Assembly (NCBI GenBank): GCA_023379845.1
Contig: JAMCPG010000042.1
Coordinates: forward strand, 19,187-83,186
Direction of reading: 5' to 3'
Length of the DNA stretch: 64,000 nucleotides
From: Thermoplasmatota archaeon
Lineage (GTDB): Archaea > Thermoplasmatota > Thermoplasmata > Thermoplasmatales > Thermoplasmataceae
Part shown: piece after piece, positions 35,384-58,447 of the stretch
Layout of the letters: each line of letters opens with the position of its first letter
How positions within the stretch are numbered: position 1 is the first letter of the stretch
Notes under the pieces: generated by a model
What the model was told of the DNA's origin: nothing
Databases searched by the model: none
Seen by the model: only the letters and a program-made list of their open reading frames with translations
Translations under genes and position numbers: made by a program

Positions 35384-36433
35384 TCAGCTGGAGCCCGGTG
35401 GCTTCAACTTGTCAAAGTTCATCGATCCGCCGAATTTCTGGTAGTTGGTGACCCTTCTTTCGAAGAAATCAGTCTTGGTTGAATTCATCGCGGCGAAACT
35501 GTCAACCCATGGCATGGGATGTTTGATCTTTTCATAAGGAGGCTCAAGCCCGATAGATTCGGCCCGCATGTTGCCAAGATACTTGATGTAATTTTCAATG
35601 ATGTTATCCGAGAGCCCAAGTATCTGATTCCTTGTGACATATTTTCCCCAGGAAATTTCATGTTCCACAGCAGTCTTGAGCATTGATGAGAGTTCACCCT
35701 TTATTTCACTCGTGAACCACTCCGGGTTTTCATCCGCCAGAGTACGCAGTATGTGCGTAAAGAGTGCAAGGTGCGTGTTTTCATCTCTCTGGATAAGCCG
35801 AATTAAACTTACTGTTCCACCCATCTTGTCCTGCCTGCCAAGTGCATAGAAGAATGCGAAGCCGCTGTAGAAATATATTCCTTCTAGGAGGTAGTCGGCC
35901 ATGCAGGATCTCAGGAATGCACGTTCATTTGGGTTCTCTATAAACTCCTGGTACTGGTCTGTAATGAACTTATTCCTTGTGAGGAGGTTTGCATCATCCT
36001 TCCACATTGTGTATACCTCATCCCGCGTTATAGAATCAACGACCGATGTAAGGAGATAATCATAGCTCTGAGCATGTATCGTCTCAAAGAAGGCCTGCGT
36101 TTTCAGGCATGCGACGACTTCTGGCGCCGTTATGTAGAGGGCAAGTGCTCCCAGGTTATCGACCTGAATGCTGTCCAGAAAGATCAGGAACGCTAGTGTT
36201 TTCTTGTAAGCTGTCTGCTCAGCCTCAGTAAGTTTCGGATACTGCCTCTTATCGTCTCCAAGCGGTACCTCGTCTGGAATCCAGAAAAACTGGCGCATCT
36301 TCCTGTATAGCTGCTCTGCCCAGTCGTATTTCACGTTTGCAAATTCAATCAGGTTGGTTGATTTTCCTCCAACAAGTCTCTGGAACTTTAAATCCCTTGT
36401 TCCTTCAGGGTTGAATAAGAGCTTTTTCTGCAT
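35384..36433 (-). CDS. nrdB: Class I ribonucleotide reductase beta subunit (canonical R2)
   Basis: FLDSIQ, FFETIHAQSYDYL, LLEGIYFYSGF, QRDENTH: all six metal ligands and the radical Tyr present. Confidence 0.95.
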   Translation of the reverse strand: MQKKLLFNPEGTRDLKFQRLVGGKSTNLIEFANVKYDWAEQLYRKMRQFFWIPDEVPLGDDKRQYPKLTEAEQTAYKKTLAFLIFLDSIQVDNLGALALYITAPEVVACLKTQAFFETIHAQSYDYLLTSVVDSITRDEVYTMWKDDANLLTRNKFITDQYQEFIENPNERAFLRSCMADYLLEGIYFYSGFAFFYALGRQDKMGGTVSLIRLIQRDENTHLALFTHILRTLADENPEWFTSEIKGELSSMLKTAVEHEISWGKYVTRNQILGLSDNIIENYIKYLGNMRAESIGLEPPYEKIKHPMPWVDSFAAMNSTKTDFFERRVTNYQKFGGSMNFDKLKPPGSS

Positions 36434-36444
36434 TTTATGTCACC

Positions 36445-38700
36445 TCAAGCCTGACATGATTCGCATGCCTCTTCTTTGACTTCTTCCTCGTCCTTTGTGT
36501 AATTCCTGAAATAGTAGAGCGTCTTGACTCCCATTTTCCAAGCATCGTAGTAAAGGTTCATGAACTTTTCCTCATCAAGATCCTGCGTTGCATAAAGGTT
36601 CAGCGACTGGGACTGATCCAGGTGCCTTTGTCTGGCTGCAGCCGCCTTGATGCTCCATGTCTGGTCTATTGAATGCGCCTCCTTGTACAGTCGGGCATTT
36701 TCTGGTGTGAGTTCTGGTGCAACCCTCTTTATGAGAAAGCTTTTTTTCTCCTCGGTGAAAACCGGCTTGAAAATTGGATCGACGCTTGCTGTGGATCCAG
36801 CAATTACGCTCGTGCTGCCCGTTGGAGCAATCGCCATGAGGTATCCATTCCTGATCCCGGATGTCTTGACTTTCTCAGCCAGCTCCAGCCACTTCGGATC
36901 ATTATAGCCCCTGATCCTGAAATATTCACCGGTTTCCCAGTCACTGCCCTTGAACAGCGGATAGGATCCCCTCTCCCGGGCCAGATCACAGCTTGCTTTT
37001 ATTGCAGCATAGTTGATGTGTTCAAAGAGTTTGTCAGCAAACGAAACATGTTCTTCGGATTCCCAGTCTATGCCATTCTGAACGAGTAGCTGGTGATATC
37101 CTGACACTCCTACACCGATAGCCCTGTATCTCATGTTGGTCACTGTAGCCTGCGGAACCGGCAGGTTGTTGAGCGTAATGACATTGTCGAGCATCCTGAC
37201 CTGAACAGGAATAACCTCTGACAGCAGGTCCGGTGTATTAGTCCTGCCAAGGTTGATGGAGGACAAGTTGCATACAACCATGTCACCGGTCTTGTACTGC
37301 ATTGTTATCACGTCTTCATTGGTTTGTTCCTGTATCCGCACTGTGGAGGACTGATTCTGCGTTATTTCGGTGCAAAGGTTGGATGAATATATCATTCCAG
37401 AATGCTTGTTTGGATTCAACCTGTTAACCGTATCGCGATTGAAGAAAAATGGGCCTCCGGTCTCATACAGGCTTTTCAATATAAGGCCAATCAGCTCCAG
37501 CGAGCTAATCTCTTTCTTTGGCACGGTGGAATCTGCCACGCATTCAAGGTATCTTTTCTCGAACTCTTCCCCCCATGAATCTTCAAGGGTCCAACCCTTT
37601 CTTATCTTTACCTCATGAGGGTCGAAAAGGTACCAGCTTTCTCCTTTTTCAAGTCTTTTGTAAAAGAGATCCGGTACGCATATTCCGGGAAATATGTCAT
37701 GTGCTTTTCTTCTCTCATCACCGTTATTGGTTTTCAGATCCAGAAAGTCAATGATGTCTGTATGCCATATGTCGAGCCATATGCTTGCTGCACCCGCTCT
37801 CTGTCCGAGCTGGTTCACTGATACTGCTGTATCATTGTAAAGCCTGACCCATGGAACAACGCCGCTGCCCACGCCCGAATAATCCCTTATTGAGCTACCC
37901 AACCCTCTTATGTGACCCAGATATACGCCCATTCCACCACCATTCTGGGATATCTGCGCGAATGCAGTCAACCCATCAAATATGCCTGAGATGGAGTCAT
38001 CCGGGGTATCAATGAAGCATGAACTGAGCTGCCCTTTGGGTCTTCTGGCCTGGGCAAGGGTAGGCGTAGCCATTGTTATGTAGAGGTTCGATAAGACCTC
38101 ATAAAACTTCAATGCCCAATATACCCTGTCCGGCTTAGTTTCTGCAAGAGCAAGGTATATCGACACTCCCATAAAGATGTCCTGTGGGAGTTCAAACCAC
38201 TTGCCATCCTTTGACTGAATTGCATATCTGTCAACCAGGTGCTTCAGGCCCGGGTAGCTAAGAAGCAGATCCCTCTCCGGCCTGATAGCCTTTCCAAACA
38301 TCTCAAAGTCCTCATCAGAATATTCTGAGAGAACCTTGGAGTCATACCTGCCTTCAGCCACCAGTTGCTTTATCAATGTTTTAAAGTTTCCATACGCCTC
38401 ACCCCTCTGGAGTGCAGACTCCTTGTAAAGATGATGAAGCAGAAGCCTCGACGCAACAAAAGTCCAGTCAGGTTCTGACATTTTTACTTTCTCGTTTGCG
38501 ACCCTGATCAGCGTCTCTTGAATTGTTTTAGTGGAAATCCTCTCCGTGAAGTGTATCTGTGCATCAAGTTCAAGTTCCATCGGATCTACATTCAGCCCCT
38601 GGCAGGCTTTTTCAATCACCGACCGGATCTTTGTAACATCGATTGGCACTTCCTTTCCTTCTCTGTTTATCACCTTAGTGGGCTTCATTATAAATTCCAA
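36445..38700 (-). CDS. nrdA: Class I ribonucleotide reductase alpha subunit with N-terminal ATP cone
   Basis: SSCFIDTPDDSISGIF, SSNLCTEI (N-x-C-x-E type), KTLYYFRNY tyrosine pair, C-terminal CESCQA redox cysteines. Confidence 0.96.
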   Translation of the reverse strand: MEFIMKPTKVINREGKEVPIDVTKIRSVIEKACQGLNVDPMELELDAQIHFTERISTKTIQETLIRVANEKVKMSEPDWTFVASRLLLHHLYKESALQRGEAYGNFKTLIKQLVAEGRYDSKVLSEYSDEDFEMFGKAIRPERDLLLSYPGLKHLVDRYAIQSKDGKWFELPQDIFMGVSIYLALAETKPDRVYWALKFYEVLSNLYITMATPTLAQARRPKGQLSSCFIDTPDDSISGIFDGLTAFAQISQNGGGMGVYLGHIRGLGSSIRDYSGVGSGVVPWVRLYNDTAVSVNQLGQRAGAASIWLDIWHTDIIDFLDLKTNNGDERRKAHDIFPGICVPDLFYKRLEKGESWYLFDPHEVKIRKGWTLEDSWGEEFEKRYLECVADSTVPKKEISSLELIGLILKSLYETGGPFFFNRDTVNRLNPNKHSGMIYSSNLCTEITQNQSSTVRIQEQTNEDVITMQYKTGDMVVCNLSSINLGRTNTPDLLSEVIPVQVRMLDNVITLNNLPVPQATVTNMRYRAIGVGVSGYHQLLVQNGIDWESEEHVSFADKLFEHINYAAIKASCDLARERGSYPLFKGSDWETGEYFRIRGYNDPKWLELAEKVKTSGIRNGYLMAIAPTGSTSVIAGSTASVDPIFKPVFTEEKKSFLIKRVAPELTPENARLYKEAHSIDQTWSIKAAAARQRHLDQSQSLNLYATQDLDEEKFMNLYYDAWKMGVKTLYYFRNYTKDEEEVKEEACESCQA

Positions 38701-38819
38701 TCAATCTCTACCTCCAATCGCATGTACAAGGACATAGCCCTCAGTATACTGCAAATGTTTGTAACGTTTTCAATGTTCAAAGATATAAGTTATTTTTGAA
38801 AACCACATATGTTACCAGT

Positions 38820-38842
38820 CATGGTTAAATACCATAACCATG
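38820..38842. promoter_or_regulatory. Perfect 8-bp inverted repeat between R2-paralog and nrdA
   Basis: CATGGTTA-AATACCA-TAACCATG read directly. Confidence 0.6.
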
Positions 38843-38873: not shown

Positions 38874-39878
38874 TTAGCGGGTTCTGATCTCGGAATAACT
38901 CTCAAACCATGGTATTGGTTGACCACCAACACCCGGAAACAGTGGGTCGAGCGAGAGCATCTTGAGCACCTTATTTGCCTGTGCCTGGGTGAATTTGGCA
39001 TTCATCAGGTTGTTAAGTCCAGGAATCATCCCTTCCGTGAGAAACTGGGTGAAATCGGTTTCCAGGTTGGTAAGATCCCTTATAAGCTTCACAACGTGAT
39101 CTTTTAGCTCTGTGGAATTGAGTGATTGGTTTTCCTCTAACAATTTATGGTATATTGAGGTTAAAATCTTGGAATGAACATCGAGATCCCTCTGAATATG
39201 CCTCAAAATCTCGAACGTTCCAGGTAGCCTACCTCTCCTGGTAAGGGAATAAACAAGGCTCAACTCAGATGGTATCATCACTACCTGTATGAAAAGGCTG
39301 ATAACAAGATCATCAATAAAATTGACCACAAGAGGCTTATTTGTGAACTCGAGGAATCTATTGTTGATCAACTTGTTTCTTTCCCGCATTTTCTCAATTG
39401 TTCTCCAAGAGTTGTATAATGGATCTCTTTCCTGTTGTGTCACGACTCCTCTGACTGCATTTGAAAGTGCATTTGTGTGATTAGCTGTCTGTGCGATCAT
39501 GGCAGAAGCAACAAGTGTACACTCAGGTGCAGTGAAGTACGGGACTATGACGTAATAATTGTCAAGTAACTCACTCTCGAGGAAAACAAGAGAAGCAAGC
39601 ACTCTTTCCACGGTTTTCCTTTCCACTTCAGATACCTGAGAGTAGTCCTTCTCATCCTTGGCCAAGCTGAATTGCTCTCCGTTCCAGTTATTAGCGATCG
39701 CTTTAGCATAGAAATCGTAGATATCCTGGTACTTAATCTCTCCAAGTTCCATAAGATTCGTGTTGCTTCCTGCTATTATTTTCCTTCGACTGATCCATCT
39801 GTCTCCAAGTTCATTAAACAGGAAGCTCCTGGAGAGTCTCTGCTGGAGCGTCAAACCAGATTCTGCGGGGTTTATCAT
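38874..39878 (-). CDS. R2-like (ferritin-fold) paralog of NrdB with degenerate metal site
   Basis: Ungapped alignment with NrdB from FLES...APE to IQRDLDVH; FTAPECTLVASAMIAQTANHTNALSNAV replaces ITAPEVVACLKTQAFFETIHAQSYDYLL. Confidence 0.9.
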   Translation of the reverse strand: MINPAESGLTLQQRLSRSFLFNELGDRWISRRKIIAGSNTNLMELGEIKYQDIYDFYAKAIANNWNGEQFSLAKDEKDYSQVSEVERKTVERVLASLVFLESELLDNYYVIVPYFTAPECTLVASAMIAQTANHTNALSNAVRGVVTQQERDPLYNSWRTIEKMRERNKLINNRFLEFTNKPLVVNFIDDLVISLFIQVVMIPSELSLVYSLTRRGRLPGTFEILRHIQRDLDVHSKILTSIYHKLLEENQSLNSTELKDHVVKLIRDLTNLETDFTQFLTEGMIPGLNNLMNAKFTQAQANKVLKMLSLDPLFPGVGGQPIPWFESYSEIRTR

Positions 39879-56143: not shown

Positions 56144-58447
56144 ATGGTGAAAAAGATGCAGGATTATATAGTTAAGAGGAACAAAAACCAGGTTCCCTTC
56201 AACAAGGAAAAAATTACAATGGCAGTTTACAAGGCAATGCTTTCAGTAAAGAAGGGCACTATGATCGATGCTGAGCGCGTTACAGATCTTGTGGTGACCA
56301 GGCTGAACGCTCTGGAACACATCCCATCTGTGGAAGAAGTACAGGATACTGTTGAAAATGAATTGATGTCTTACTCAAGAGATGGCATCAGCTTCGCTGA
56401 CGTTACTAAATCCTACATTCTCTACAGGGAACGTCGCAGGATAGTCAGGGAAGAGAAGATGAGGATAGGTGTTACGGATGACCTGAAACTATCTCTTAAT
56501 GCAATAAAAGTACTGGAGTCAAGGTACCTGCTCAAGGACGAAGCTGGCAATGTCATAGAAACCCCTAGGGAACTCTTCCATCGTGTTGCTTACAACGTTG
56601 GCATAATAGAGTACATTTACCAAAACCTCAAAAACAGTTCACCGAATGGAGGCAAACTCGCCCTTGGCGAGCTGCAGGTTAACACTTTAAAAAGGGCATT
56701 TGAAAATCTCAGGAAAGAGGGCTTTGTTAATGGTACCTTCGAGTCCTTTATAGAAAATACTGGCGGCTATACTGTCGAAGTGAACAAGCTTGTTGAAAAA
56801 TTCGAGAAAATGATGACAGATCTTGATTTTGTTCCGAATTCACCAACGTTAATGAATGCAGGAACTCGCCTGGGCCAGCTCTCTGCATGCTTTGTCCTTC
56901 CTGTAGAGGATTCAATCGACGGGATTTTCCGTACGCTTGCAGACACTGCTAAGATTCACAAGTCTGGCGGCGGAACTGGTTTCTCATTCAGTAAGCTCAG
57001 GCCACGGGACGACCTGGTGGGATCAACCAAGGGTGTAGCGTCCGGGGCACTTTCATTCATGTCAATTTTTGACACAACCACCAATGTAATAAAGCAGGGT
57101 GGGAAACGTCGCGGTGCCAACATGGGCATCCTTAGATATGATCATCCAGAAATTGTTGATTTCATATCCTCAAAGGATTCCGCCAACACTATACTCAGCA
57201 ATTTCAACATATCAGTGGGAATTGATAGCGACTTCTTTGAACGGCTTGATCGAGACGATTATGTTGAACTCAAAAATCCAAGAACGCATGCAGTCGAGAA
57301 AAAGATGAAGGCGGCAGATCTCTGGAACATGATTATTGATCATGCATGGACAACAGGTGACCCAGGATTGATCTTCCTTGATGAAATCAATGCCCATAAC
57401 ACGGTTAAGAACCTCGGGGATATAGAGTCGACAAACCCATGCGGTGAACAGCCTCTCCTTCCGTACGAGTCATGCAACCTGGGATCGATCAACCTCGCAA
57501 GGTTCGTTAAGGATGGAAGGATTGATCACGAACGCCTTAAGGATGTTATCTGGTTATCCGTGAGGTTCCTCGACGATGTCATCGACGCCAACCTTTTCCC
57601 GGTTGAGGAAATAGAGCGGGTGTCCAGAACTACAAGAAAGATCGGACTCGGTGTGATGGGATTTGCCGACGCACTTGTACAAATGGGCATACCCTATGCA
57701 AGTACGCAGGCTCTCAAGACCGCAGAGGATATAATGTCATTCCTTCAGGACGAGTCGCATGCGGCATCTGAAGCGCTTGCCAAGGAACGGGGCGTATTCC
57801 CCGGATGGAAAGGATCTTACTGGGAGTCGATAAACCAGAAGATGCGTAACTCAACCACGACCACAATAGCCCCAACGGGAACAATCTCAATAATCGCCGG
57901 ATGTTCATCGTCAATTGAGCCTCTCTTTGCTCTTGCATTTGTAAGGCATGTCCTGGATGGTCAGGAACTTCTAGAGGTAAACCCGTATCTGGAAAAGAGC
58001 CTAAAGGAGCTTGGACTGTATTCAGAGAGACTGATGCTTAAGATCGCACAGACTGGCAATCTTTCGGACACAGCGCTTCCAGATGATCTAAAGAAACTCT
58101 ACCTTACGGCCCAGGAGATAGACTACAAATGGCATGTGCTTATGCAAGCTGCATTCCAGAATTATTGTGATTCCGGTGTTTCGAAGACAATAAATCTTCC
58201 AAACTCTGCTACCAGGGATGACATCGCTATGGCGTACAGGCTTGCCAGAGATCTTCACTGCAAGGGTATAACCGTGTACAGGGACGGGTCTAAGTCACAA
58301 CAGGTTCTATACATGGGCACCAAGGAAAAGAAGCAGGAAGATGCAAAACAGGTGAACCAGGAACTCATCATGTCAGCTCCAGATAACCTGCTTAAAGTGG
58401 ATTCCACATACGACCCTGCATGCACCTCTGGATCATGTACATTATAA
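56144..58447 (+). CDS. nrdJ: Class II (adenosylcobalamin-dependent) ribonucleotide reductase with ATP cone
   Basis: NPCGEQPLLPYESCNLGSINLARF, TTTIAPTGTISIIAGCSSSIEPLFALAF, C-terminal CTSGSC. Confidence 0.95.
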   Translation: MVKKMQDYIVKRNKNQVPFNKEKITMAVYKAMLSVKKGTMIDAERVTDLVVTRLNALEHIPSVEEVQDTVENELMSYSRDGISFADVTKSYILYRERRRIVREEKMRIGVTDDLKLSLNAIKVLESRYLLKDEAGNVIETPRELFHRVAYNVGIIEYIYQNLKNSSPNGGKLALGELQVNTLKRAFENLRKEGFVNGTFESFIENTGGYTVEVNKLVEKFEKMMTDLDFVPNSPTLMNAGTRLGQLSACFVLPVEDSIDGIFRTLADTAKIHKSGGGTGFSFSKLRPRDDLVGSTKGVASGALSFMSIFDTTTNVIKQGGKRRGANMGILRYDHPEIVDFISSKDSANTILSNFNISVGIDSDFFERLDRDDYVELKNPRTHAVEKKMKAADLWNMIIDHAWTTGDPGLIFLDEINAHNTVKNLGDIESTNPCGEQPLLPYESCNLGSINLARFVKDGRIDHERLKDVIWLSVRFLDDVIDANLFPVEEIERVSRTTRKIGLGVMGFADALVQMGIPYASTQALKTAEDIMSFLQDESHAASEALAKERGVFPGWKGSYWESINQKMRNSTTTTIAPTGTISIIAGCSSSIEPLFALAFVRHVLDGQELLEVNPYLEKSLKELGLYSERLMLKIAQTGNLSDTALPDDLKKLYLTAQEIDYKWHVLMQAAFQNYCDSGVSKTINLPNSATRDDIAMAYRLARDLHCKGITVYRDGSKSQQVLYMGTKEKKQEDAKQVNQELIMSAPDNLLKVDSTYDPACTSGSCTL

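Follow-up and report, generated by a model that had tools for sequence, protein, structure and literature searches.

The window, a stretch of 64,000 nucleotides from a Thermoplasmatota archaeon, lies on contig C42 of a metagenome-assembled genome (1.5 Mb, 84% complete). It includes a class I ribonucleotide reductase (RNR) locus transcribed from the minus strand in the order beta', nrdA, nrdB, where beta' stands for an R2-like paralogue of the small subunit, and a class II gene located outside of the beta' locus:

38874..39878, minus strand: beta', R2-like paralogue; ATG start, 334 aa, metal site dismantled, C-terminal tail absent
38821..38841, minus strand: perfect palindrome ATGGTTA-TGGTATT-TAACCAT with 7-bp arms, in the beta'-nrdA gap
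38783..38797, minus strand: BRE/TATA-like element AAAAATAACTTATAT upstream of nrdA, named from resemblance to the consensus only
36445..38700, minus strand: NrdA, large subunit of class I (751 aa when counted from a TTG start, with an ATG 12 nt in), carrying one ATP-cone
35384..36433, minus strand: NrdB, the canonical small subunit of class I (349 aa), with all six ligands, Tyr122, the tail and its Tyr356 present
56144..58447, plus strand: NrdJ, class II (B12-dependent) ribonucleotide reductase; its orthologue matched NF005010/TIGR02504

With the class II NrdJ, this organism possesses an oxygen-independent enzyme besides the oxygen-dependent class I one. When the window NrdA was compared with those of L046, L043 and L056, the NrdA proteins of genera g1 and g3 showed an N-terminus about 130 residues shorter, and a single ATP-cone was present in the window NrdA against two such stretches in the NrdA of G014 and G006. 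In G034, an intein bearing a LAGLIDADG domain interrupts the NrdJ sequence (L048:464-3781).

Judged by its sequence and predicted model, beta' keeps the helical fold of R2. It matched PF00268 (Ribonuc_red_sm) over the full length in the profile search (E=1.2e-49, 170 bits against a cut-off of 33.6), and its AF2 model (mean pLDDT 83, pTM 0.86) could be superimposed on the Aquifex R2 7ail with a TM of 0.85. The nearest solved structures, both by sequence and by fold, were the R2 proteins of Aquifex aeolicus (7ail), Clostridium botulinum (6zjk) and Bacillus halodurans (2rcc), and the best model match was the prokaryotic NF007184 NrdB group, while the match to the Rnr4 structure 1jk0_B (2.5e-5) was far weaker. 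The alignment to the adjacent NrdB, described as free of gaps over more than 130 residues in the first-pass annotation, contained a single gap over 319 residues, of which 79 were identical (25%; BLASTP, 141 bits).

The residues were numbered according to E. coli K-12 NrdB, which served as the ruler, and their columns were taken from a 40-sequence L-INS-i alignment in which 18 beta' copies and 21 neighbouring or related NrdBs were scored. In the window protein D84 is replaced by Glu, E115 by Thr, Y122 by Leu, E204 by Gln and E238 by Leu, while H118 and H241 are kept, together with W48, R236 and D237. The positions 84/115/118/204/238/241 thus read E, T, H, Q, L, H, which is not the ligand set of a functional class I R2. 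The assignments at 84, 115, 118, 122, 204, 238 and 241 had all been made correctly in the first-pass annotation, and its central claim, that of an R2 fold whose metal site is dismantled while the neighbouring NrdAB is intact, is borne out by the PF00268 match, the residue check and the intact NrdB. Its wording that three of four bridging ligands were gone needs a correction: from the four carboxylate ligands (D84, E115, E204, E238) three are indeed lost and one is changed to Glu, but the bridging pair in the established R2 structure is E115/E238, both of which are lost.

The same site is altered throughout the family. E238 is substituted by Leu, Val or Ile in all 18 copies, E204 is lost and D84 changed to Glu in 17 copies each, and E115 is lost in 14 copies but retained in the other 4. 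No copy deviates at H118 or D237 (18/18), R236 is kept in 17 copies, and position 241 is occupied by His in 11 copies and by Gln or Asn in the remaining 7. W48 varies, and the hydrophobic pocket F208/F212 is not conserved. The loss of the radical Tyr, correctly noticed beforehand in the window protein (L122), turned out not to be a defining property: the Y122 to Leu change is limited to the window's genus (6/6), and the other 12 copies keep the Tyr. The strongest conservation was found in the C-terminal part (282-324), which is not a metal site. Chance or misalignment can be excluded, since the same columns align in all 18 beta' copies and the NrdBs have all six ligands and Tyr122 intact in 21 cases out of 21. 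The most divergent copy, that of G007 (locus L042), kept E204 and carried R236N, H241N and W48S. With E238, E204 and mostly E115 lost, beta' is not expected to build a dinuclear metal cofactor. The retained E84-H118-D237 set may, as a conjecture, form a structural hydrogen-bond network replacing the metal.

The second missing part is the C-terminus. All 18 beta' copies end 8-10 residues past the conserved PW motif (10 in the window protein), while the family NrdBs extend 38-43 residues past it, including Tyr356 and the presumed R1-binding end, so that the whole tail of a functional class I R2 is absent from the window protein and from every other copy. A Tyr was aligned at 356 in 20 of the 21 family NrdBs; the exception, G011, came from a locus with broken frames. 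Tyr356 is conserved across all characterised class I RNRs (PMC8463856), and with the tail missing, beta' is not expected to pass a radical to NrdA or to dock on it in the normal way.

The missing Tyr356 also bears on the idea that beta' keeps a remodelled redox site, either with a mononuclear metal held by E84/H118 together with E115 or H241, or with a modified Tyr122 as in class Ie. Such a site could draw on the nearly invariant E84, H118 and D237, and on Tyr122, E115 and H241 in the copies which keep them. However, no full ligand set is conserved family-wide, the window's genus having Leu122 and Thr115, no Lys is present as in the class Ie VPK/QSK substitutions (PMC11846895), no PF07972 match indicating an NrdI gene was found in 9 genomes, and the Tyr needed for radical transfer is gone with the tail, which makes a redox role quite improbable.

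The search was run on 117 genomes of the order, on a sample of 400 from the class and on one of 393 from the phylum (the last with PF00268). Beta' was found only in this family, in 17 genomes of 5 genera (all 6 species of the window's genus and 4 further genera) with 18 copies, one of them probably misbinned. Within the order, 15 genomes had both beta' and NrdB, 2 had beta' only, 6 had NrdB only and 94 had neither, i.e., the two genes co-occur (Fisher p about 2e-12, kinship ignored). The two genomes with beta' only (G007 and G046) were 76-77% complete and no RNR large subunit of any class was found in them; being incomplete in this way, they are uninformative on beta' without NrdB. Four of the six NrdB-only genomes belong to genus g2, whose NrdB (71-73% identical) occurs together with NrdA but without beta'. 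Since the g2 NrdB nests within the family NrdB tree beside the beta'-bearing genera, this points to a secondary loss of beta' in g2; no remnants of the gene were found in the examined loci of genomes lacking it. An extra beta' at L049 (G035:C31) was 97% identical to that of G046, and the NrdB at L060 (G094:C56) was identical to that of G001 despite belonging to another family; both probably lie on misbinned contigs.

In a tree calculated without eukaryotic R2, beta' formed a single clade with 100/100 support and a long stem, its branches largely following the genera, as do those of NrdB. A topology with beta' and the family NrdB as one clade was not rejected by the AU test (p 0.22), and both a split from the family NrdB and an earlier one are compatible with the data. 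The dN/dS of beta' was 0.026-0.070 in five of the six close pairs with measurable dS; the value of the sixth pair (0.19) is inflated because its alignment took in N-terminal sequence preceding the likely start. The corresponding values were 0.006-0.029 for NrdB, i.e., a tighter constraint than on beta', and 0.024-0.080 for NrdA, while the dN of beta' was about three to seven times that of NrdB. The faster evolution in comparison with NrdB and the identity of only 25% to it are what a relic, an nrdB duplicate decaying by drift, would display, but the low dN/dS (about 0.03-0.07), the intact reading frame in 18/18 copies and the age of a fully supported clade common to 5 genera make this reading hardly credible, and the pseudogene interpretation was ruled out on the basis of dN/dS and conservation. 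Judged from these substitution patterns, beta' is under purifying selection and evolutionarily maintained, not decaying. Absence from relatives or signs of drift had been named beforehand as observations that would speak against the initial claim; instead, genus and family have both retained the gene. The proposed co-conservation with NrdAB likewise held in 15 genomes, but the same substitutions were shared only in part, the Tyr122 loss being confined to one genus.

In all 15 genomes with beta' and NrdB, beta' immediately precedes nrdA in the same orientation, and usually it is divergent from a glutamate formiminotransferase-like (FTCD) gene, so named from sequence resemblance only. In G011 the order is FTCD-nrdA-nrdB without beta' in between. 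The recurrence of the same gene order in independent assemblies rules out misassembly or contamination. An origin from viruses or plasmids was also rejected: viral contigs gave no beta', the phage and plasmid tblastn matches listed did not exceed about 30% identity, and the ones inspected at the sequence level were ordinary NrdBs with intact ligands. The linkage in 15 genomes, the tight co-occurrence and the absence of beta' from the 94 genomes of the order in which NrdB was not found either argue against a homodimer with its own non-RNR role, such as a ferritin-fold scaffold or binding protein merely adjoining nrdAB. That interpretation would suit the conservation maximum at 282-324, away from the metal site, and also G007, in which beta' has no adjacent nrdA and lies in a rearranged neighbourhood, co-oriented with the FTCD-like gene; but with this assembly only 76% complete and devoid of any RNR large subunit, even that of class II, the orphan state probably results from assembly loss. 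Overall, a role apart from RNR appears rather unlikely.

The beta'-nrdA gap varied from 162 to 1617 nt, while nrdA and nrdB were adjacent or overlapping; in G043 (L051:5413-6687) a transposon-like ORF was inserted between beta' and nrdA. The element AAAAATAACTTATAT was largely conserved in the aligned intergenic regions of the window's genus, which suggests that nrdAB has its own promoter. From the size of the gap and this promoter-like element before nrdA, beta' is probably transcribed separately, despite its linkage to nrdAB. The palindrome, a candidate operator or transcript hairpin by its sequence, is present in a single copy in the genome and was recognisable in 5 of the 6 species of the genus. 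The NrdJ gene is situated away from nrdAB in the window's genus (56144-58447), in contrast to genera g10, g14 and g15 (loci L043, L044, L045, L050, L053 and L055), where it directly follows nrdB, so that classes I and II are clustered.

Separate transcription would also suit a negative or tuning regulator, which would swap into the NrdB dimer and thereby remove one NrdA-binding tail and one radical site, so that the class I enzyme would be weakened under low oxygen, low iron or a low demand for dNTPs and the flux shifted to the class II NrdJ. The genomes do carry NrdJ, and the tail lost from all 18 copies would lower the avidity for NrdA. On the other hand, the palindrome near nrdA is single-copy, and the strong conservation of beta' suits a subunit equally well as an inhibitor; we consider regulation an unlikely explanation.

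Being stripped yet constrained, and found almost only with nrdAB, beta' is most plausibly a partner protein acting on NrdB or on NrdA. The reading that we prefer, and to which we assign an even chance, is that of a non-catalytic, tailless partner heterodimerising with NrdB, Rnr4-like in its action and apparently of independent origin. Beta' would take the second seat of the R2 dimer beside NrdB and would stabilise NrdB or its metal loading, and the resulting asymmetric alpha2-beta-beta' enzyme would be left with a single radical site and a single tail for binding NrdA. Such an arrangement with only one competent beta would be feasible, since class I RNRs show half-of-sites engagement, i.e., engage one half at a time (PMC8463856). 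The more specific proposal of an independently evolved archaeal beta-beta' class I RNR, in which a beta' without cofactor and tail makes the enzyme obligatorily asymmetric, with a single radical source and docking tail, is put forward more tentatively, at somewhat below an even chance. Several points count against the heterodimer. The NrdB and NrdA of g2 occur without beta', so that an NrdB of the family type needs no such partner in general. The variable gap, the transposon-like ORF in one genome and the apparent own promoter of nrdA mean that stoichiometric co-expression is not assured. Finally, the retention of H118, D237 and usually Tyr122 is not obviously needed for pure scaffolding, and beta' evolves faster than NrdB, with a dN about three to seven times as high.

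In the literature searched, nothing relevant was found on class I RNR in the Thermoplasmatales or on an archaeal beta', and no report on such a protein in archaea or bacteria; because this literature was mostly without subscription papers and the profile search was confined to the phylum, priority among prokaryotes is not claimed. In the accessible literature, a heteromeric R2 with a cofactor-poor partner has been described only for eukaryotes. If true, a conserved archaeal beta' would mean that such a heteromer evolved at least twice, and its tailless form would naturally put to the test whether a single functional R2 half suffices, the half-of-sites question of class I RNR. Besides, R2 folds that lack a full metal site but keep H118, D237 and, in many copies, Tyr122 are useful for probing the non-catalytic roles of those residues.

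Among the known R2 types, the structurally nearest proteins of Aquifex, Clostridium and Bacillus halodurans (7ail, 6zjk, 2rcc) differ from beta' in having the six ligands, Tyr122 and the tail Tyr intact. R2lox is also an R2-fold paralogue not serving as an RNR radical generator, but it keeps its metal ligands; the lost ligands of beta' and a match to the R2lox model NF006200 restricted to a 44-residue stretch (24.8 bits against a cut-off of 194) rule out this assignment, in line with the first-pass annotation. The same applies to class Ie, a metal-free R2 with a DOPA radical, which resembles beta' in the substitution of three carboxylate ligands. It is defined by VPK/QSK substitutions including Lys, a Tyr to be modified and an NrdI partner (PMC11846895), and it has the tail Tyr; none of these is present in the window protein, which has Gln at 204, Leu122 and no C-terminal Tyr, and NrdI is likewise missing from the 9 genomes searched for it.

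The eukaryotic heteromers are closer. Yeast Rnr2/Rnr4 and Plasmodium PfR2/PfR4 are precedents of alpha2-beta-beta' with a second non-canonical R2 (PMC3824934). The apicomplexan R2_e2 (PfR4) forms its own clade and has lost the radical Tyr in several species, and PfR4 has been found to interact with PfR1 and PfR2. By its residues, the beta' family is more fully dismantled, since most of the metal ligands and a conserved C-terminus for R1 binding are still present in R2_e2 (PMC3824934), while beta' lost both ligands and tail. Saccharomyces cerevisiae Rnr4 is likewise an R2 paralogue without key diiron residues beside a canonical R2 (Rnr2), with a structural/chaperone role assigned to it (PMC3824934, PMC6277125, PMC11149843), and the corresponding pairing of a cofactor-poor paralogue with a canonical R2 in one genome was found here in 15 of the 17 beta' genomes. 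The parallel with Rnr4 drawn in the first-pass annotation therefore stands in this respect, but it overlooked the loss of the tail, which makes beta' less like PfR4 and probably less like Rnr4. Moreover, Rnr4 belongs to the eukaryotic R2 clade, while beta' is a tailless archaeal protein nearest to the NrdB group of the NF007184 type, and its heterodimer is putative. By analogy, beta' may nevertheless work like Rnr4 or R2_e2.
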